Positions 72 to 64,000 of a stretch of DNA of 64,000 nucleotides are shown here, piece after piece. The notes under the pieces were generated by a model. It had not been told where the DNA came from, ran no database searches, and saw nothing but the letters and a program-made list of their open reading frames with translations. Every line of letters begins with the position of its first letter. Position 1 is the first letter of the stretch. Source of the DNA: an uncultured Clostridia bacterium (GTDB lineage: Bacteria > Bacillota > Clostridia > UMGS1883); the NCBI GenBank assembly GCA_947629005.1, contig CANRCD010000003.1:1-64000 (forward strand), read 5' to 3'. The translations under genes were made by a program, and so were the position numbers.

Positions 72-2846
72 ATGAACAGTAAGAAAATTTTGGCTATGAT
101 AGTGGCCGTCGCCATGGTCGTAGCCATCGTTCCCGCTTTCACGCTGACAGCCGGCGCGGCGGATGCATCAGTAATCGAAACTCTTGGTGCAAAGACGCTT
201 TGGAGCGCTCCGAGCGGCGATTATTTCGACTATCCGATTGCGTCCGCTTTCCCAGGTTGGTCGGTAACTCCGGCAGACAAGGTCAACATGAATGTTCGCA
301 CATATGACGGCAGGACCGCTATTCAAGTATATGGCGACGGTGGCGGTAAAGTGAGCACACTGACTACACCGGGCTTCGGAGCCAACGCAGAAAAAATCGT
401 CGTTGAGTGGGTACACAAAAACAGCGGAAACAGTTCCGTAAACTATGTTTTCAAGGACATTGAAGGAAATGTTATATCCAACGCATGGATAGATGAAAGT
501 CACGCCACAGTTGAGGATCAAAATCCTTTCGGCAATCCTGCCGAGGATACTGTTTTGTCTGTAGTTGCATATAACGAGGGAGAAAATCACACGACTGAGT
601 TTTATGTAAATGGAGAGCTTTCCCGTAAAAGAACTGACGGAACAGGAAAAATAAACGGTTTCAAGAGCATTGAGATAACTAGATACTCCACAGGCACATG
701 GCGCTTTGAAAACCTCACCGTAGCTGCCGTTTATCCTGATACTTACACCGTGGTAACTGCACAGTACACTGTCAACGATAATGTTGTTGCAACTGAGGTT
801 GGCGCCTATGAGACCGCAACCGGTAGCGGCTTTACTTTCCCTGCAAAGGATTACGCCCCCGACGGAGACACTGCGATTTACCATACCGATGGCGAGATAC
901 TTGGTTCTGATGGGACCATTACAATGACGGCTATCGAAAACGACAGCCCCGAGGAAAAAACCGTAACCGCCAGAAACGGAAGGACTTATGCGATCGAGGG
1001 CAATAACCTTATTCCTAACGGCGACTTTTCCAAAGGAATGTTAGGCTGGTTTGACGGCAGAATGAACACTCCCGTTGAAATAATGGACAATGGAGACGGA
1101 ACTGTTAAATTAAACGCGCATCAAGGCCTAACAAATAACGAAACAAGAGGCGGCGTGTTCTATAGGAGCTTCCCCATTGAAGCAAATGAAACATATATAT
1201 TCACATCTTATGTTGACGTGAACAATGCTTACCACAGGGTAAGCCTGTGCAACGAGCTTGGCATTAACTCGGAAACCGAGCTGAAGGCTATATTCGGTAT
1301 AGGCGATTACGACCATCTTGCTTATGAAAACGCCCCGATAGGTCAGTCCTACTATGCCTTCACAAATACTGAGGGATATAAATATCTTAAGGTGCTTTTC
1401 CGCTGGAGCCAGAACAACAGCATTGGTAAGTTCGGGCTGTATAAGGCTCGGGCTGTCGATGCTCCGTTAGGAACAGTAAGCAATATTGAAGACGGTCTGA
1501 AAATAGTTGCCGGAAGCTGCCCCGTAATAGGCAATGTCGCCACAGTAGAGGGCGGAGTGTTCCAGACCGAATCTTCGTTAGATGCCGGTGAGCATAGTAG
1601 CTTTACCATCAAGGACAGACTGACAGGCGATGAATACATCGTAAATAAAAAAGTAACCGTTCTTCCGATGGCTTTTGAGAGCACCAAATCTACTAAGAAC
1701 ACCACCGTTAAATTTCCCGAGGAACGCGTACTTGAAAGCGGCGGATTTACTATAGAATTTGACTTCCGCGCCGAAAGCCTTAATGATCTGCACATATATA
1801 TAGGTAAAGACGGTGCAGAATGGGGTGCCGGCGGAATTCTTATCGGCTTTTCTAAAAACGATACCGAGGCAGACCTTATGCTCGGACAGAGGGGATCTCA
1901 CGGTACGGCTAACGCTGGCGTTAAACTAAATGCTAACACTGACTACCGTATGCTTGTTATGGGCTCGCTTGACGATTACACATACGGCGTTATTATCAGA
2001 GATTCTTCCGGTGCTGAGATTTATAATGACATTACTGCCGTAACAGATGACCATTGGTTCAGAACAAATCAAGGTCTGAACTCTATCCGTGTTACGGACA
2101 GAGGCAACGGCGTTTACGTGAGAAACGTAAAGGTACATACTCCCGAAGCCCCCAGTAATTTGAAGGCATCTCTCGGCTGGGACGAAGAAAACAGCAAGTT
2201 CACCGCCAACTTTACCGTTGACGAAGGCACGGCTTCAAGCTTCAAAATTACTCCTCAGAACGGCGAGCCTGTTGCCGCGGTGAGCAACGACGGAGTTATA
2301 GTTGACTCCGAAAAGACAAACCGTTATTATTCCGTAATGGCCGTAAATAACGGCGCTAGGAGCACAACAGTAAAAGCAAGTGTATACGGCCTTGTTATGG
2401 AAGCTATTGGAAACTATGCCAAGGCCGACGAGGTTGTCAAAATCAACTCCAAACAGCTTGATAAGGTTAATGAGGTTCTTAAGAATGGTGGTCTGTACCT
2501 TAAGAAGGACAGCTCCGAGGGCAACGCTAACGGCTACAAGCTCGCCGACGGGGTTGCGAACGTTCTCGCGCTCAGTACTGCCGGCACCGGCCTTAAGGTT
2601 GAAATCACCGAGGCGGCCGTCAAAGCCGGTCTGTCCTTCGGCGATACCGGCGCCGAGATAACAACCATAGAAGGCGCTACGGCTATAGTTGCCGAGGACG
2701 GCAAGTCCGTAATGATAACCCTTCCCGCCGATATGGAGGCGCTTGAAGACATCTTCCTAGAGGAAATAGAATTTGTTTTTGAGCCCGATGAGGTTGTCGA
2801 ATCAGCCGATGAGGTAGGTTCGGTAGACTTCGTTGAAGAGATATAA
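72..2846 (+). CDS. Secreted multi-domain carbohydrate-binding-like protein with novel C-terminal module
   Basis: This is a secreted protein of 924 residues. The first 30 residues are a signal peptide (MNSKK, a hydrophobic run, then AGAADA). An AAGGAGG ribosome binding site lies about 12 bases before the ATG. Around residues 313-450 there is a carbohydrate-binding-like region (NLIPNGDFSKG, GW), followed at about 530-690 by a concanavalin-like beta sandwich (FTIEFDFRAE). An Fn3-like stretch beginning SLGWDEENSKF leads into the last 150 residues, which end in an acidic tail, VDFVEEI. From the Fn3-like stretch onward, this end matches the C terminus of the heparinase-like protein at the other edge of the window. 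I see no catalytic motif, so it is more likely a binding or scaffold protein than an enzyme. The short gene behind it is probably cotranscribed. Confidence 0.85.
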   Translation: MNSKKILAMIVAVAMVVAIVPAFTLTAGAADASVIETLGAKTLWSAPSGDYFDYPIASAFPGWSVTPADKVNMNVRTYDGRTAIQVYGDGGGKVSTLTTPGFGANAEKIVVEWVHKNSGNSSVNYVFKDIEGNVISNAWIDESHATVEDQNPFGNPAEDTVLSVVAYNEGENHTTEFYVNGELSRKRTDGTGKINGFKSIEITRYSTGTWRFENLTVAAVYPDTYTVVTAQYTVNDNVVATEVGAYETATGSGFTFPAKDYAPDGDTAIYHTDGEILGSDGTITMTAIENDSPEEKTVTARNGRTYAIEGNNLIPNGDFSKGMLGWFDGRMNTPVEIMDNGDGTVKLNAHQGLTNNETRGGVFYRSFPIEANETYIFTSYVDVNNAYHRVSLCNELGINSETELKAIFGIGDYDHLAYENAPIGQSYYAFTNTEGYKYLKVLFRWSQNNSIGKFGLYKARAVDAPLGTVSNIEDGLKIVAGSCPVIGNVATVEGGVFQTESSLDAGEHSSFTIKDRLTGDEYIVNKKVTVLPMAFESTKSTKNTTVKFPEERVLESGGFTIEFDFRAESLNDLHIYIGKDGAEWGAGGILIGFSKNDTEADLMLGQRGSHGTANAGVKLNANTDYRMLVMGSLDDYTYGVIIRDSSGAEIYNDITAVTDDHWFRTNQGLNSIRVTDRGNGVYVRNVKVHTPEAPSNLKASLGWDEENSKFTANFTVDEGTASSFKITPQNGEPVAAVSNDGVIVDSEKTNRYYSVMAVNNGARSTTVKASVYGLVMEAIGNYAKADEVVKINSKQLDKVNEVLKNGGLYLKKDSSEGNANGYKLADGVANVLALSTAGTGLKVEITEAAVKAGLSFGDTGAEITTIEGATAIVAEDGKSVMITLPADMEALEDIFLEEIEFVFEPDEVVESADEVGSVDFVEEI

Positions 2847-19923: not shown

Positions 19924-22900
19924 TTACTCCTCAGAGATTTCTTCTTCATCGCTGTATTCAAAGAAGGGAATCTCCTCAATATCGTCTACGCTGCTTTCGG
20001 TATAGTCAGAAACCTCCTGAGGCTCGATCTCGTCATAAATCGAGGCGGTTGTGGCGTCGCCGAAGTCATAATCACTGTAGATATTCTGGTAAAGCTTTTT
20101 CTGAGCTTCGTTGAACTGACTGGGCTCGTAAAGAATGAAGATTTCCTTGACGCGGAAATTGATTCTCGCGCGGTCACCCTGCTTTCTTACAAGCACAAGC
20201 TGATCCTCGGACAGCGCGCCAATGCCGACGCTTTCAACATTGGTCAGATATCCGCGGCTGTCGTATACGAACCTGTAAGCGTTGCCCTCGAGAGGCTCGT
20301 CGGTCAGGCTGGCGTTGCCGCGCAGACTGAATATGGACGAGGACACAATAGTCTCAAGGTCGGTTACGCGGCCCACATAATAATGCTGCAAAGCGTAGCC
20401 CTCACGGCCATCGTTCGTTATTTCCCAAGGAGCGCCATCCATGGGGAACAAATACCTATGGTCGGCTTCCTTTTCACCGAAGCTCTCAAGAACGCTCGGG
20501 TTATTCCACGAGTTTCCGCCTCCAAAAATGGATCTTACGTGAACAATTTGACTTCCGCTCATGTAGAGGTTGACCAAATCGCCGCGGCGCCAGAACTGAT
20601 TCTGCATTTCCTGAACGGGATCGTCGGAGTTATTGACACTGTCGTTGCTGGCCGAGCCGTTGCGGTACTGGGCGTAATAGTAGTCAACTCGGTCCTGATT
20701 GAAGGCCGAAGTTTTCTGCATACCGCCGTCCCAGTATACGAGGGAGTAGCCGTGCTCATTCTGGCCGTTGTAGGTTTCAATAACACGGTCAACCACCTTC
20801 ACCGTTACGTTCCAACGGGCGTCGTTAACATTGTAATTTACGGTTCCTTCGGTATCGTAGTTGTCGTAAATTACGGCAAAATCCGCAACATTGTCGTCGT
20901 CCAAATAGTAGAAGTGGTATTCGGGCCAGTATTTATCGGGTTCGGTATTAGTGGAGTATACGTGATAGATATCGCTGTTGCTGCTCTTTGAGAACTTGTC
21001 ATCCGAGCTGAAGATCACGGCGTTGTCGTTGATATAATAGAGCGTGTTGGCATTATCCTGATGGTAGCAGTGATAGGTGCCGTTATAATAGAAGTTCTGC
21101 TGCATCCAGCTTTTTTGTTCGCTCCTGAGCTCATTACCGTTTGTGGTCGTCATCTCGGTAATCCTGTTGTTCTTATCCGCCTTATAGATGAAAGCGGCCT
21201 TGGCAGGGTCCGGAATATATTTGCCTGCAGCGTTGGAATCGCCGGAGCGTATGCCGAACAGGTGACTTTCAGAGTTCGATATCATGTTGAACACATCAGA
21301 GCCGCTGTACTCAACGCCGTCAAGCTTAACCTTGTTGGCCATGGTGAATGTTGCGAAGGTGCCGTCCGCCTTTATAACCTCAATGGTGTTGCCGCCGTTA
21401 AAGGGACCGCCGGCGGTGTAGGTGATCATCATAGCGATGTTCTTGTTCACCTTTTCCTCGCCGTCAAAGCCGGCAATCTTTCCGTCATAGGAGAGATAGA
21501 ACGTGCCCTCATCGCCAATGGAAAGGTCATAATTTTTGAGAACAAAATCGTAATAGCTGTAATAGTTACCGTTAATCTTAAAGTCCTGATCGGAATTGCG
21601 GCCGCTTATGGAGCCGGTAACGCTGTCATTGGACACGATAACCGTTCTTACGCTCTGGTCCTCGTCACGGCTGAAGGCAAAGTGCAGCACGCTGCCCTTT
21701 TTTATGGTGTTGAAGGGAACATTATTGCCCTTGCCATCCATTATTCTTACGATGTAATCCTCGTTATCATCCTCAAGAGTAATGGAGCGCGCGCCCGTAC
21801 TGTACGAGGACGTAACCGTCTTGGTTCTGTCGGAAGAATTGTATACGACCATGATTTCATAATCCACAACGTCGAGGATGTCATAGCGGCCGTCATCGTT
21901 GTTATCAATAAGGGTAACGCGGCCGTACTCGGGCGCGATGTCGGATATCCTGTAGTCGTCAATCGCCACGCCATTATAAATAACCAACGGAGTTATGGAC
22001 GTCTTGACGGACTTGGTATTTTTGTCGTTATCATTGCGGCGGTACTCGTATACGTAGGACGAGGAAATCAAGGACACATTCTCTATCATATCGGCGTCCA
22101 GAGAGATATAGTTGTTCTTTGACGACTCAACCTTAAAGGCTATGACCGTCCTGTTGGCAACGGTATCGTCGCCGTATGCGTAGAAGCTGACATAGTACCC
22201 AAGATAATTGCCTATGCCGGTGCCGCCGTCCTTAAATATCTCGTCGCCGATACGAACCATGCCGCTGTCAAGGGTGGACTCGCCGGATATGCCGGTGTTC
22301 TCGTTTTCCTCAACAATACCTGTGATTTTGGCCGTATCGTAATACTCGCTGAGAATATTCTTATCTTCGGAGGCCTGATAAACGGCGTCGCCGTTTCCAC
22401 GGTAGCCGATAACCTCCATAAGATCGGCGGTAAGAGAGTTATAAACCATCTTGGCCACATCGCCGCGGGTTATATAGGCGCCCATGGTGAGCCCTACGCC
22501 CTTGGTAAGATTGAGCCTGGTGGCAACATTAAGATAGCCGCCCGGATAGCCGCCGTTAAGGGTGGCGTAGTAGTCGTAGCCGAGCGTGGCGGTTATCATC
22601 TTGATGGCCTGCTCGTAGGTGACGGGCTCGTCAGGGTAGAAATTACCGTCGGCGTGACCGTCGATTATACCGAAGCTTCGGGCATAGGCCACGGCGGCCC
22701 TTGCCCAGTGATCCTGCATATCGTCAAACTGGACCTCTTCGATGGAAACGTCCTCGCCGTAGTCCTTTATGTTGAGCATGTGCAGGCATATTACGGCCAT
22801 TTCGGCCCTTGTGACGGTCACATAGGGGTGAAAGCTTCCGTCGGCATAGCCGTTCATGATACCCAGCGTGCGAAGTATCGCGACGGGAGTTTCATAGTTT

Positions 22901-23010
22901 GTGCCGTCAACGTCGCTGAAGCCCGTCATGCCGACGGCGGAAGCGGTCGGAACGACCGCCGCCGTCAAAAGCATTGTCAGCGAAACAATTAAACACAATA
23001 CCTTTTTCAT
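19924..23010 (-). CDS. Large S-layer protein with N-terminal SLH domains
   Basis: A signal peptide (MKKVLCLIVSLTMLL, cut near ASA-VG) precedes three SLH domains within residues 27-215: TGFSDVDG...NGYADGSFHP...TRAEMAVI; FDDMQDHWARAAVAYA...DGHADGNFYPDEPVTYEQA; then a third, degenerate one. SLH domains bind pyruvylated secondary wall polymers, so it is anchored at the surface. The remaining 800 residues are acidic, rich in D, N and Y, and unlike any family that I recognise; they may form the S-layer lattice. The end is very acidic (FFEYSDEEEISEE). It lies 21 bases behind the upstream SLH gene and is the last gene of the operon. Confidence 0.88.
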   Translation of the reverse strand: MKKVLCLIVSLTMLLTAAVVPTASAVGMTGFSDVDGTNYETPVAILRTLGIMNGYADGSFHPYVTVTRAEMAVICLHMLNIKDYGEDVSIEEVQFDDMQDHWARAAVAYARSFGIIDGHADGNFYPDEPVTYEQAIKMITATLGYDYYATLNGGYPGGYLNVATRLNLTKGVGLTMGAYITRGDVAKMVYNSLTADLMEVIGYRGNGDAVYQASEDKNILSEYYDTAKITGIVEENENTGISGESTLDSGMVRIGDEIFKDGGTGIGNYLGYYVSFYAYGDDTVANRTVIAFKVESSKNNYISLDADMIENVSLISSSYVYEYRRNDNDKNTKSVKTSITPLVIYNGVAIDDYRISDIAPEYGRVTLIDNNDDGRYDILDVVDYEIMVVYNSSDRTKTVTSSYSTGARSITLEDDNEDYIVRIMDGKGNNVPFNTIKKGSVLHFAFSRDEDQSVRTVIVSNDSVTGSISGRNSDQDFKINGNYYSYYDFVLKNYDLSIGDEGTFYLSYDGKIAGFDGEEKVNKNIAMMITYTAGGPFNGGNTIEVIKADGTFATFTMANKVKLDGVEYSGSDVFNMISNSESHLFGIRSGDSNAAGKYIPDPAKAAFIYKADKNNRITEMTTTNGNELRSEQKSWMQQNFYYNGTYHCYHQDNANTLYYINDNAVIFSSDDKFSKSSNSDIYHVYSTNTEPDKYWPEYHFYYLDDDNVADFAVIYDNYDTEGTVNYNVNDARWNVTVKVVDRVIETYNGQNEHGYSLVYWDGGMQKTSAFNQDRVDYYYAQYRNGSASNDSVNNSDDPVQEMQNQFWRRGDLVNLYMSGSQIVHVRSIFGGGNSWNNPSVLESFGEKEADHRYLFPMDGAPWEITNDGREGYALQHYYVGRVTDLETIVSSSIFSLRGNASLTDEPLEGNAYRFVYDSRGYLTNVESVGIGALSEDQLVLVRKQGDRARINFRVKEIFILYEPSQFNEAQKKLYQNIYSDYDFGDATTASIYDEIEPQEVSDYTESSVDDIEEIPFFEYSDEEEISEE

Positions 23011-23031
23011 TCTGCGTAAACCCTCTTTCCT

Positions 23032-59376: not shown

Positions 59377-62300
59377 TCAAATCTCCTCGACAAAATCAAC
59401 CTCGCCGTAGTCGTCGCCGAATTCCTCTACGGCTTCGTCGTCAAAGACGAATTCTATCTCCTCAAGGAAGATAACGTCGGCCTCCGAGGCGGCAAGTCCA
59501 TCAATCGTGACAGTTTTGCCGTCGGCGGATACGGTGGTCTTAATGTCATCGGCGGCGTCGCTCGTCGCGTAGCCAACCTCGGCAAACCTCAGGCCCGCGT
59601 TGTAAACCTCATCTTTAAGGGTCACCTTTCCGTCGGCATAGCTCATGAGCATATCGCCCTCCTTGGTGAGCCTGTAGTTCGAGCCGTCCTTGATGAGATA
59701 TATGCCGCCGTTATTCAGAACCTCGGCCGCCTTGTCAAGCTGAGCCTTGGCAATGACGGTATTGGGATTTTTCTCCACAAAGCCCGCTATAGCTTCAGCC
59801 ACAAGCGCGTAAACGCCCGTAGGCTCGGTGGGAAGGCCGGCGTTGCGGCCTATTATTCCTCTGGCCCGATAAAGGGCGTTAGTGTCGGCGGTGGAGAAGG
59901 CCACGCCTTTCTCGCCATCCCCTATATCGCCGGTAAAGCTGCCGCCGCCGGACTTGAACACCTTAACGCTGTCGCCGCCGAACAGGAAGTCGACTGTAAA
60001 TCCGCTTCCGTCCCAGCCGAGGCCGATCTCGGGAGCAGCGGGAACCATAGCGTCAATTTCACTCCCCGTCATAGCGCGGTCGTATACCCTGAATTCGTCG
60101 ATAAGGCCGTTGTAATACTCGCCGCTTCCCCAGTTGGCCTTGCCTATCTGGAGCACGGGCGATAAGCCGAGAATGTCGGCAAGCTTAAATTTGCTGGATT
60201 CGGACTTGACAAGCTTGCCGTCGATATAAAGCTCTGTGCTGCCGCTCTTTACCACGACCGCGACAAGCTTCCAATCCGTGCCGAGGCCGGACGCCTCGGG
60301 CGCGGCGGGACGCTCTTTGTCATTATAACGCTGAATGGCGAGCTTTCCCCCATTTTCAAACGCGCCGAGATAATGCTTATTTTCTTCGCCGCTGAAGTTA
60401 TTTCCGCTGTTCGAGGCGAAGAAGGGCCAGTTCGTATTTGTATCGTTCACCTTGTTGTAATAGGTTATGGTGAGCTCTTCGACATTGGCAAGCAGGGAAC
60501 TGCCGTCGGCCATAACGGCGTTGAGCCAGCCGCTGTTCGCAAACGAAGCCGCGTTGCCCACAAGGCCGTCGGCCAATGTGACGCCGCCGCCCTTTATTTC
60601 CGCCTTGCCGAGGCCGCCGGCGAAGCCGTCCGCCTCATCGTCAAAGCTGAGGTCGAGCAGAATTCCGTCGTAATCTTTCACGCTGTATTTGAGCTCGGCA
60701 ACATTGCCGTAGCCCTTTGTAACGGCGAGCTCGGCGCTGCCGGTCTGCTCGGCGTCAAATTCATAGAGCTTACCGCTTTCCTTCCAAATGGGGCCGACCA
60801 CGTAATCTGCGGCGTTGACGTTATCGCCCTCGTCCGCGCGGAAGATGTCGGTCGGGGCGACTTTTGCGCCGTCCGAAGTATGCTTTATCGTCACATAGGT
60901 GGGGATAAGGTCGCTTTCGACCTCGCGGAGCTCAAAGTCAGAGAAGTAGAGGATTCCGGCGCCAGTCCAGCCAAACATACTCAGCATTAGGTTGTCGGCT
61001 TCCAGACCGTAGGGTACGGTAAACAGGTATTCCTTATGGTTCATGCCAGGCGAATATGGCATATCATAGCGGTCGCGCTGTACCTCGGACTGTTTTTCGG
61101 GGCTCCAGGAATTCTGGCCGCCGTACTCGGCGTAATCCTTAAAGATTATACCGTCGAAGCTGCCAAAAGCACTGCCCTTAACAGGGACAAAGGCGCTCAT
61201 CTTGCTGTTGGTACCGATAACCCCGCCGGTGTTGTATGCGTAGAAGGACAGGTAGTAGCTCTTGCCCTCTTCGATGGGAACAAAGCGGCGTACAACGGAC
61301 GCGGTGCTGCCGCCCTTACTATCGGCAGAGTTCGTCAGGGACTTGCCATTGCCGTGAACGTAAGAGTCGGAAATCGTGCCCACATAGTTGCCGCCGTTTT
61401 CGGCGTTGGTCCAGCCTTCGGCTCCATTCGAGAAGTCGCCGTTGGTAATGAGGTTTTCTTCGCCCAAAGTCGCCTCAACAAGAGCAACGCTGATTTTTTC
61501 GCCCGAGCCGGTCTTAACGGTCAGCAGGGAGTTATTCATATCGGTCAGATAGGTTTTCCCGTTTATGGTGTAGAGCAGCTCCGGCGTATAGCTGTAGCTG
61601 CCGGGCTCGGCTGTGACGCTATCCGACTTGATCTCGCCATCGTTACCGACAAAGCTTATCTCCACCTCGGCGGCGGGCGCGTAGACCGCCTTGAGCTCGT
61701 ATGTGCCGCCCTCCGCTATCATCACGCTAAGGTCTGATTTGGCCTTGTCAAGGTAATAGGTCTTTTGATTATATTCAATGGTATCGAGGGCGGGATAAGT
61801 GTAGAGCTTGCCGTCGCTGAGGCCCTCGGTAACGGCGGCGGGCTCTTTGATTGTAGCTCCGTCCACGTCGGTAAAGGTGACATTTACCTTGGTCTCCTTC
61901 TGTTCGCCAACGGTCTCCTTTACGGTAAGAACGAAAGTAGGCCCTTCATGCTTACTGCTATTGATGGAAGCAAACTTTCTGCTGCCGCTTTCGCTTATCA
62001 TGGCAAGGGTAAACTGAGAATCTTTACCCGCCTTAAGATAATCCTTAAGGTTCTTGGTAAAGTCAACCTCAAAAACATCTCCCTCGGCCTTTGTGCCGCT
62101 AGCGTCACCCTCAGTTCGGTAATCATAGCCGGTAAAGCCAGCGTCGGAGCCCGCAGTTGTTCTTTTAGGCATCTTGCTTTCATCAAGAACAAGGCTACTG
62201 AGACTGTCCCTATCCCATACCGGATCGTTATAGTTTAAGAAGTACAGATGCATTTTTCCCGCAGCGCCCATATCCTCAGTTCCATTGGGTGTAACCATGG

Positions 62301-64000
62301 TCAAGCGCAGCACCGCCTTATCAAAGCTGTCGGGATCAACACCCGTCAAGTCGAAGCCCATGTAAGCATTTCTGGCTGTGTAGTTTGAAATCGCCGCTTG
62401 AATTATTTCTCTATTGGCTTCTTCTTTACCTTCATTAACCTCTTGTGCCTGCAAATTATAAGCCGTAAAGCCATCCTTGGTGGCCTTTATCTTATTCTCA
62501 ACAATATTGGTGACGCTTCCGACGCCAACGGCGTAGATGTAGTCGCCCTCTTTAACAAAGTCGACAACTGATTCGCCGTTAAGGGTAACGGTGGTGGCAT
62601 CTGGGGCGTATATTTTTATAGCCTGCTCCTTATTGTTAGTCGCGGTGAGGCTCTCGCCGGTTATGGAAACCGCGCTGCCGTCGCTTTCAACAGCTATTGA
62701 GGCAATTTGTAAATCGGAGGCAATAATGTCACTTTCGCCGTTCTTAAGGCTCTTGCCGCCCACAAGGCCGTACTCCCCGTCAGAGGCATAGGCCATCTTC
62801 GCGTCGGTGGTATAATCGCCGAAGGAGCCGTCAGCCGAATCGGTGTTCTTGACATAATAATACAAGGTATTTCCGTCAACCGTAAACTTCGCCGCGCCCT
62901 TGTTCACATCGTTCTGAGCAAGATCCTCGGCGGATACATCGGCTGTTTCTCCAACTCTTGTGGGATAAAGTATAGTATTGAACTTGACCGCCGTGCCGGA
63001 CTTTTCAAATCTGCCGTATTCGCACTGTGTGGCAAGGCCGTAATCCGCACTGTGAACGCCGGTTGCAAGGTCAGCGGTCGCTCCTGCGGAGGCCATTACA
63101 ATGTTAGCCTTGCCGTCAAAGGCGGTAGAAATGACGCCGTTGCCCGCCTTGGCGTTGCTCGAAGGCAAAAAATGCCAGTTCTGTCGGTAATTCTTAGCCG
63201 TTGTGCCGGTCACATAGTCGGAAACTATAGCGAAGCCGTCGTGCAGGAACAGCACGTTTCTGGTGTGACTTATGTTGTTGGAAACAAAGTTGCTGTGGCT
63301 GCCCTCGGCAAAGTCGAAGCTGTCATTGGAAACAGTGTACTCAAGCGCCTTGGCATTGCTATGGAAGTGGTCCTTATCCGAACCCATATTTATGCCCTCG
63401 GCCTCGATGGTATTATGGGCTTGAGCTGTTCGCACCTCATTATACAGTGGGCTGCCGCTGTAGCCAACGCGGCCGCTGTCAACAAGCAGGGGCTGGCCAT
63501 ACGCATACATGAGCACCTGATTAAGGTCGGGGTGGGCGTGGCCGTTTGAGGGGTTGTTTGTGTAGCTGATATACACAGCTTCATCGGGATTCCAACTATT
63601 GCGCATATAGGCAGAGTTGGCATCCTTGTAGTATTTGGTGAGATATTCGCCGGTACCTTCCTTGCCGCCGTTAACATAATTTGTTATATGCGGGTCGCCA
63701 AGAGCCGCGGCAAGAGTTATAAACTTATCCATTCTTGGACGGTAGTTGGAGTCGCCGATGTTCGTGTCGTAGCCGTTGGGGTATGCACATTCCATCGCAA
63801 AGCGGGTAGCGTAGGTGAGCATTGACTTATACTCATTGCCTATGTCATTGCCGTTAAGTATGCCCATGCGGTAAGCATCGCCGAACAGCTCGGCGCACCA
63901 AATGGCATAAGCGGGGCCGGACTCGGTAAAGCTCATGTCATCGTTATAGAGCTCCTTAAACTTGTCAATGAGGCGGCTCTCGTTATAGGCCTTCCATTCG
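59377..64000 (-). CDS. Giant secreted heparinase II/III-like polysaccharide lyase, 5' end missing
   Basis: The frame is open to the window edge, so the start and signal peptide lie outside; about 1540 residues are visible. First comes a heparinase II/III-like domain with SNGHAHPDLNQVLMYAYGQPLLVDSG, which holds the probable catalytic and metal-binding residues (H, D, N), and the family-type AHNTIEAEG. Then a DNRLRE/CBM96-like beta domain (about 500-690), two MucBP-like repeats (VNVTFTDVDGATIKEP), a CBM4/9-like domain (NLITNGDFSNGAEGW), a LamG/concanavalin domain (GLIDEFRVYDRAM) and finally the same C-terminal module as the protein at 72-2846, ending VDFVEEI. It should cleave uronic-acid polysaccharides outside the cell. 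The substrate cannot be told. Confidence 0.9.
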   Translation of the reverse strand, partial: EWKAYNESRLIDKFKELYNDDMSFTESGPAYAIWCAELFGDAYRMGILNGNDIGNEYKSMLTYATRFAMECAYPNGYDTNIGDSNYRPRMDKFITLAAALGDPHITNYVNGGKEGTGEYLTKYYKDANSAYMRNSWNPDEAVYISYTNNPSNGHAHPDLNQVLMYAYGQPLLVDSGRVGYSGSPLYNEVRTAQAHNTIEAEGINMGSDKDHFHSNAKALEYTVSNDSFDFAEGSHSNFVSNNISHTRNVLFLHDGFAIVSDYVTGTTAKNYRQNWHFLPSSNAKAGNGVISTAFDGKANIVMASAGATADLATGVHSADYGLATQCEYGRFEKSGTAVKFNTILYPTRVGETADVSAEDLAQNDVNKGAAKFTVDGNTLYYYVKNTDSADGSFGDYTTDAKMAYASDGEYGLVGGKSLKNGESDIIASDLQIASIAVESDGSAVSITGESLTATNNKEQAIKIYAPDATTVTLNGESVVDFVKEGDYIYAVGVGSVTNIVENKIKATKDGFTAYNLQAQEVNEGKEEANREIIQAAISNYTARNAYMGFDLTGVDPDSFDKAVLRLTMVTPNGTEDMGAAGKMHLYFLNYNDPVWDRDSLSSLVLDESKMPKRTTAGSDAGFTGYDYRTEGDASGTKAEGDVFEVDFTKNLKDYLKAGKDSQFTLAMISESGSRKFASINSSKHEGPTFVLTVKETVGEQKETKVNVTFTDVDGATIKEPAAVTEGLSDGKLYTYPALDTIEYNQKTYYLDKAKSDLSVMIAEGGTYELKAVYAPAAEVEISFVGNDGEIKSDSVTAEPGSYSYTPELLYTINGKTYLTDMNNSLLTVKTGSGEKISVALVEATLGEENLITNGDFSNGAEGWTNAENGGNYVGTISDSYVHGNGKSLTNSADSKGGSTASVVRRFVPIEEGKSYYLSFYAYNTGGVIGTNSKMSAFVPVKGSAFGSFDGIIFKDYAEYGGQNSWSPEKQSEVQRDRYDMPYSPGMNHKEYLFTVPYGLEADNLMLSMFGWTGAGILYFSDFELREVESDLIPTYVTIKHTSDGAKVAPTDIFRADEGDNVNAADYVVGPIWKESGKLYEFDAEQTGSAELAVTKGYGNVAELKYSVKDYDGILLDLSFDDEADGFAGGLGKAEIKGGGVTLADGLVGNAASFANSGWLNAVMADGSSLLANVEELTITYYNKVNDTNTNWPFFASNSGNNFSGEENKHYLGAFENGGKLAIQRYNDKERPAAPEASGLGTDWKLVAVVVKSGSTELYIDGKLVKSESSKFKLADILGLSPVLQIGKANWGSGEYYNGLIDEFRVYDRAMTGSEIDAMVPAAPEIGLGWDGSGFTVDFLFGGDSVKVFKSGGGSFTGDIGDGEKGVAFSTADTNALYRARGIIGRNAGLPTEPTGVYALVAEAIAGFVEKNPNTVIAKAQLDKAAEVLNNGGIYLIKDGSNYRLTKEGDMLMSYADGKVTLKDEVYNAGLRFAEVGYATSDAADDIKTTVSADGKTVTIDGLAASEADVIFLEEIEFVFDDEAVEEFGDDYGEVDFVEEI

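Follow-up and report, generated by a model that had tools for sequence, protein, structure and literature searches.

The question raised by this locus is what function is served by a C-terminal module that two secreted proteins of an uncultured Clostridia bacterium have in common. The window, by which we mean the whole stretch of 64,000 nucleotides that was analyzed, contains one copy of the module in each of these proteins. The first-pass annotation had described the C-termini of "two giant secreted proteins" as alike along their length and had proposed a role of the module in sorting, anchoring, or docking. The features concerned are listed below.

72–2846, plus strand: P0001, secreted protein of 924 aa (Sec-type signal peptide; no Pfam domain above the cut-off)
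2172–2843, plus strand: C-terminal module, copy 1, 224 aa (alignment with copy 2)
2751–2843, plus strand: genome-specific signal formed by the 31 C-terminal residues of copy 1, with DFVEEI before the stop codon (tail pattern match at 2826–2846)
59377–63999, minus strand: ORF of a heparinase II/III-family lyase, 1540 aa inside the window (Pfam and NCBIfam scans)
63028–63567, minus strand: Hepar_II_III_C domain (PF07940) of the lyase (Pfam)
60055–60495, minus strand: LamG-like domain (PF13385), directly before the lyase module (Pfam, E 5.8e-23)
59380–60021, minus strand: C-terminal module, copy 2, of the lyase, 214 aa (alignment; AlphaFold2 pLDDT 84.4)
59827–60021, minus strand: predicted N-terminal Ig/FN3-like beta-sandwich half of copy 2, residues 1–65 (AlphaFold2; weak Ig/FN3-like Foldseek matches)
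59422–59826, minus strand: predicted alpha/beta body of copy 2 with two helices, residues 66–200 (AlphaFold2; fold without a match)
59380–59472, minus strand: genome-specific signal formed by the 31 C-terminal residues of copy 2, predicted as a last strand, a short helix, and a disordered acidic tail, with DFVEEI before the stop codon (AlphaFold2; pattern match at 59377–59397)

The lyase ORF extends beyond the window edge to contig position 65364, and the complete protein consists of 1995 aa with a Sec-type signal peptide at its start. P0001 also has a signal peptide, but because it is 924 aa long, the lyase alone can be called giant. The two module copies were aligned end to end over 224 and 214 aa (BLASTP, 89.7 bits, E 1e-26, 36% identity; 38% identity in the multiple alignment), and their Smith-Waterman score of 257 was far above those obtained with 1,000 shuffles (mean 41, maximum 82). 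The likeness of the two C-termini is therefore well above chance, and the motifs pointed out previously, LGWD..F, LVxEAI, LDK..EVL.NGG.YL.KD, FLEEIEFVF, and the terminal VDFVEEI, are present. The module is the exact C-terminal end of both proteins. The statement that it follows a binding domain in both was borne out for the lyase, in which the LamG-like domain precedes it, but not for P0001, in which the Pfam scan found no significant domain ahead of the module. As had been noted, neither protein matched SLH, LysM, or LPXTG models in Pfam (SLH at E up to 1), and no named domain matched the module in Pfam, NCBIfam, or a profile search of PDB sequences.

Structure prediction had been suggested as a way to recognize a known fold. 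The lyase module was modeled by AlphaFold2 with 30 relatives as input (pLDDT 84.4, pTM 0.78), and the predicted structure consisted of the Ig/FN3-like half and the alpha/beta body, followed by residues 201–214, which were disordered with a pLDDT below 50. When this model was compared by Foldseek with PDB and with BFVD, a set of viral structures, no match had an E value of 0.001 or less, and no known fold was assigned.

The module family comprises about 90–100 copies and is found in all eight genomes of one genus, with 2–26 copies per genome. In the genome from which the window comes (2.04 Mb, 97% complete), a single-sequence search detected 9 copies and a profile search 12. Four other genera of the same family, represented by 13 genomes, yielded no copy. 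At the level of the class, six of 391 genomes, all belonging to this genus (one of 223 genera), carried it and the other 385 did not; at the level of the phylum, it was found in only one of 398 genomes (one of 267 genera), that of the window itself, and was absent from the other 397. When a nine-residue stretch of the genus consensus, which detects solely those relatives that retain this stretch, was searched against 84,980 named species genomes, 26 loci were obtained, all of them in metagenome-assembled genomes of uncultured Clostridia labelled Lapin (rabbit). A scan of the same kind with an alignment of three copies from the window's genome gave no matches. Within the genomes searched, the module family is restricted to one genus of rabbit-gut Clostridia.

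In 62 of the 67 copies inspected, the module had the characteristic end and extended as far as the stop codon; of the other five, four were odd copies and one was truncated by its contig. Module proteins with readable starts had Sec-type signal peptides. The regions in front of the module differed widely among 59 module proteins and included LamG (22 proteins), aBig_2, Big_4, BNR_4, GH43, GH32, GH39, GH78, GH88, heparinase, alginate lyase, CBM4_9, CBM35, CBM96, F5/8, LRR_5, RicinB, and PI-PLC-X domains. The module is, in other words, a conserved extreme C-terminal end on otherwise unrelated exported proteins, which is the distribution that had been expected of a sorting domain. None of the 59 proteins had an SLH, dockerin, LysM, or LPXTG anchor in the Pfam scan. 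Since the eight genomes of the genus contain 32–54 SLH domains each, the module proteins form a separate class of exported proteins.

The signal peptides were also nearly identical among paralogs of one genome (e.g., MRIKKVLSLAVVLAMVLTVVPMFGLTASA), and both ends of these proteins are therefore more alike within a genome than their middles. Acidic C-termini were observed outside the module family as well: a 1035-aa surface protein encoded in the window (19927–23031, minus strand) has an SLH-like start and a strongly acidic end (FEYSDEEEISEE), and several SLH proteins of the genus have acidic tails (L201).

The last approximately 31 residues of the module differed from the rest in their pattern of conservation. 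Each genome was characterized by its own terminal sequence, or dialect: DFVEEI in the window's genome (G000), DFIEEV in G005, DF[IVT]PEL in G002, G006, and G007, [AG]L[TVI]PEL in G003, DADE[VI]L or ELEP[VL]L in G001, and EFIEEI or DFVEVI in G004. In 259 distant paralog pairs from the same genome, the tails were 62% identical and the cores 28% identical, whereas in 22 close pairs from different genomes the corresponding values were 52% and 61%. Agreement of the terminal hexapeptides within a genome was 0.75–0.88 in the populated bands of core identity, even where core identity was only 15–25%, and it reached 1.00 in the two closest pairs. For genomes whose dialects differ, the agreement was 0.42–0.50 at any core identity, even above 0.6. 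For example, one copy in G001 and one in G006 have cores that are 87% identical, yet end in DADEIL and DFTPEL, respectively. The genome-specific alignment columns were nearly all located in residues 184–214, with isolated ones outside this region (residues 99 and 154). Common descent of the copies in each genome was rejected as the origin of this pattern: a tree of the cores, built without the last 31 residues, mixed the genomes (38 label changes) to nearly the same extent as shuffled labels (mean 40.9), which indicates that the paralogs predate the species and that their ends changed in concert. The signal co-varies with the species and not with the carrier protein. The special status that the first-pass annotation gave to the conserved acidic end is therefore well founded, and its proposal of a sorting or docking domain agrees with the C-terminal position on exported proteins; the part that requires adjustment is the signal itself, which lies mainly in the last approximately 31 residues and not in the module as a whole. 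As a separate observation, the module cores at L073:8863–9594 and L090:2360–3091, from G006 and G007, were 100% identical, compared with 30–90% for other copies; a recent transfer or a misbinned contig may account for this.

The tail was also detected apart from the complete module. A pattern consisting of the tail and the stop codon gave 40 matches in three genomes, compared with 0, 0, and 1 for the reversed pattern; 9, 7, and 22 of the matches were ends of these proteins in the respective genomes, and of the other two, one was ended by its contig and one lacked the stop codon. One of the matching proteins, a BNR_4/ricin-lectin protein, has a short acidic linker followed by the tail and no module. 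In addition, there is a second variant of the module, which shares the back half and the tail with the first and differs from it in front (E 3.8e-18 by profile comparison). The front half of the module was compared with a C-terminal Ig-like domain of the sister genus g5 (P 6.7e-4 and probability 27% for variant 2; P 0.014 for variant 1), and these values are only suggestive of homology.

Relatives of the lyase core with 45–56% identity were found in three sister genera (g2, g3, and g5) and, within the order, in one further family; those in g4 had approximately 28–34% identity. The g4 relatives have three SLH domains at the same C-terminal end, and those of g2, g3, and g5 have other C-terminal domains without SLH or a known anchor; within the genus, the lyase relatives of three genomes carry the second module variant, and those of two genomes carry the variant seen in the window. 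These differences suggest that the C-terminal modules at this place can be exchanged, and a known anchor is among them. This arrangement supports an anchoring role of the module, though it is not proof of one. The ends in g2, g3, and g5 indicate that the place is not always occupied by an anchor. A wholesale replacement of SLH by the module was rejected, as SLH proteins are as common in the module genus as in the other genera.

Dockerin and cohesin families are both present in the genus. At L123:4127–10651, and likewise at L121, L124, and L074, an M60 peptidase of approximately 1,800 aa with a type I dockerin is followed downstream by a module protein at a distance of a few bases (18 bp in L123, from the Lapin-008 genome). 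This module protein, found in four genomes of the genus, consists of 367–370 aa comprising a signal peptide, approximately 120 residues, and the module. If these 120 residues were cohesin-like, the module would stand where SLH does, and by eye the 369-aa protein made an attractive candidate for a cohesin adaptor; the tests gave this idea no support, as its N-terminal domain had an hhalign probability of 0.2% against cohesin and a pLDDT below 50 in the AlphaFold2 model. In a g5 genome (G011, L200:876–7535), a dockerin-bearing subtilase-like protein adjoins a protein that has three SLH domains and weakly matches cohesin, and this pair is possibly a minimal anchoring scaffold. Cohesin-bearing surface proteins, in many of which the cohesins flank a dockerin of the same polypeptide, were also observed at L201, L202, L204, L205, L207, and L210; their C-terminal domain, "AFVWD..M.PL", is a recurrent protein end in the family.

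Address signals at the C-terminus are an established type of element, and we compared the module with those described. SLH is a repeated domain of approximately 44 residues that binds wall polysaccharide. Like the module, SLH (PF00395) occurs at the C-termini of secreted modular enzymes, but the two have no sequence or Pfam similarity, and the element of the module that varies between species is a C-terminal peptide. The dockerin-cohesin pair (PF00404/PF00963) likewise places a module on many enzymes and lets one partner collect them; however, the module lacks the two calcium-binding loop repeats of type I dockerins and did not match PF00404, while the same model detected true dockerins elsewhere in these genomes. 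LPXTG/sortase and PEP-CTERM systems also use a C-terminal tag on exported proteins, but the module C-termini contain no LPXTG-like cleavage motif, hydrophobic segment, or basic tail, being acidic with a hydrophobic last residue, and no Pfam or NCBIfam model of such tags matched them. Searches of the 59 modules with NCBIfam and Pfam models of T9SS and PEP-CTERM sorting signals gave only scattered single-member matches at chance level; the T9SS C-terminal domain, which is also Ig-like, C-terminal, and carried by many secreted enzymes of one lineage, belongs to a different phylum. The signal at the C-terminus of outer membrane beta-barrel proteins (OMPs), which similarly resides in terminal residues on the final strand, reportedly varies from species to species together with BamA, which reads it (PMC3582582, PMC3869937). 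The clients of the module are, in contrast, secreted modular enzymes of SLH-bearing Clostridia and not beta-barrels, and there is no homology. In sequence, genus restriction, and dialects, the module matches none of the systems compared, and the nearest analogy for its dialects is the reported species-specificity of the OMP signal and BamA.

Taken together, the C-terminal position, the unrelated exported clients, and the tail that follows the species make one shared reader per cell the simplest account of these data. We slightly favor the interpretation that the module acts as an address or docking element at the C-terminus of Sec-exported proteins, most of them carbohydrate-active, and that it is recognized by one putative partner in each species, probably for retention at the surface. 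According to this model, the Ig/FN3-like spacer and the alpha/beta body would present the final beta-strand, the flexible acidic tail, and the free hydrophobic carboxyl terminus; after export, one partner common to all clients of the cell would read the end of the tail outside the membrane and hold or sort them, most likely so that they are retained at the cell surface. As one partner would serve many clients, a change in the partner would cause the tails of all of them to drift together, giving each species its own dialect. Recognition of the tail in trans is the part of the model in which we place strong confidence. Given such recognition, surface retention seems a reasonably good expectation, favored because the clients have no other anchors and related lyases use SLH at this place, although the clients could act in solution.

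Another explanation is docking in a multi-enzyme complex, in which the tail or the module would bind a scaffold and the enzymes would assemble together instead of singly on the wall. The clients are largely carbohydrate-active enzymes and binding proteins, the genus has dockerin and cohesin families, the dockerin-bearing M60 peptidase lies upstream of a module protein in four genomes, and in the g5 genome a dockerin-bearing peptidase is encoded beside the protein with SLH domains and a weak cohesin match; nevertheless, the module contains no dockerin motif, the N-terminal domain of the 369-aa protein showed no sequence similarity to cohesin, and a scaffold with repeated receptors was not found. 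We regard this explanation as unlikely, though ahead of the remaining ones. A signal for export, folding, or maturation, read and perhaps removed by an extracytoplasmic chaperone, protease, or secretion component, is less likely still. A free hydrophobic C-terminus would suit PDZ-like readers. A species-specific end also recalls the species-specificity reported for the C-terminal OMP signals and BamA. Against this, many related secreted proteins of the sister genera and SLH proteins of the same genomes manage without the tail, and homology to T9SS or OMP signals was not found.

Self-assembly, in which the strand and tail of one module would enter a groove of another to form polymers or a lattice, would fit the flexible conserved tail after a terminal strand and the many copies per genome. 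A co-evolving groove should, however, leave genome-specific columns in the body, where only the isolated ones at residues 99 and 154 are seen, and the tail occurs also without the module; for both reasons we consider self-assembly improbable. We give equally little weight to the view that there is no trans-acting reader at all and that the tails of a genome owe their likeness to gene conversion or to the shuffling of 3′ cassettes. Identical codons at identical tail residues were indeed moderately more frequent than expected in G003 and in G005–G007 (0.55–0.61 compared with 0.42–0.46 expected in the latter), so that partial homogenization of the tails by gene conversion is likely, and the likeness of signal peptides within a genome and the module core identical between two genomes point in the same direction. 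In G000, on the other hand, the value was near expectation (0.505 compared with 0.447), and the eight DFVEEI copies of this genome are encoded by seven different DNA strings; furthermore, the homogenized stretch stops at about residue 184, at the amino acid level. Homogenized DNA by itself does not explain the agreement of the tail peptides.

Recognition by a shared partner, the reading that we prefer, bears on how bacteria direct their secreted proteins, for which few kinds of C-terminal address tags are known. The tag described here is carried by dozens of large glycan-active proteins of rabbit-gut bacteria and matches no curated model. We see an even chance that it represents a new, genus-confined addressing system, in which a C-terminal peptide code with species dialects would allow a putative extracellular partner to bring dozens of enzymes and lectins together, either in a complex or at the cell surface. 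The dialects would be the signature of co-evolution with one shared putative partner per species, which makes the search for this partner concrete. If confirmed, the system would provide a new route of enzyme display on Gram-positive-type cells and a case of a tag and its reader changing together.
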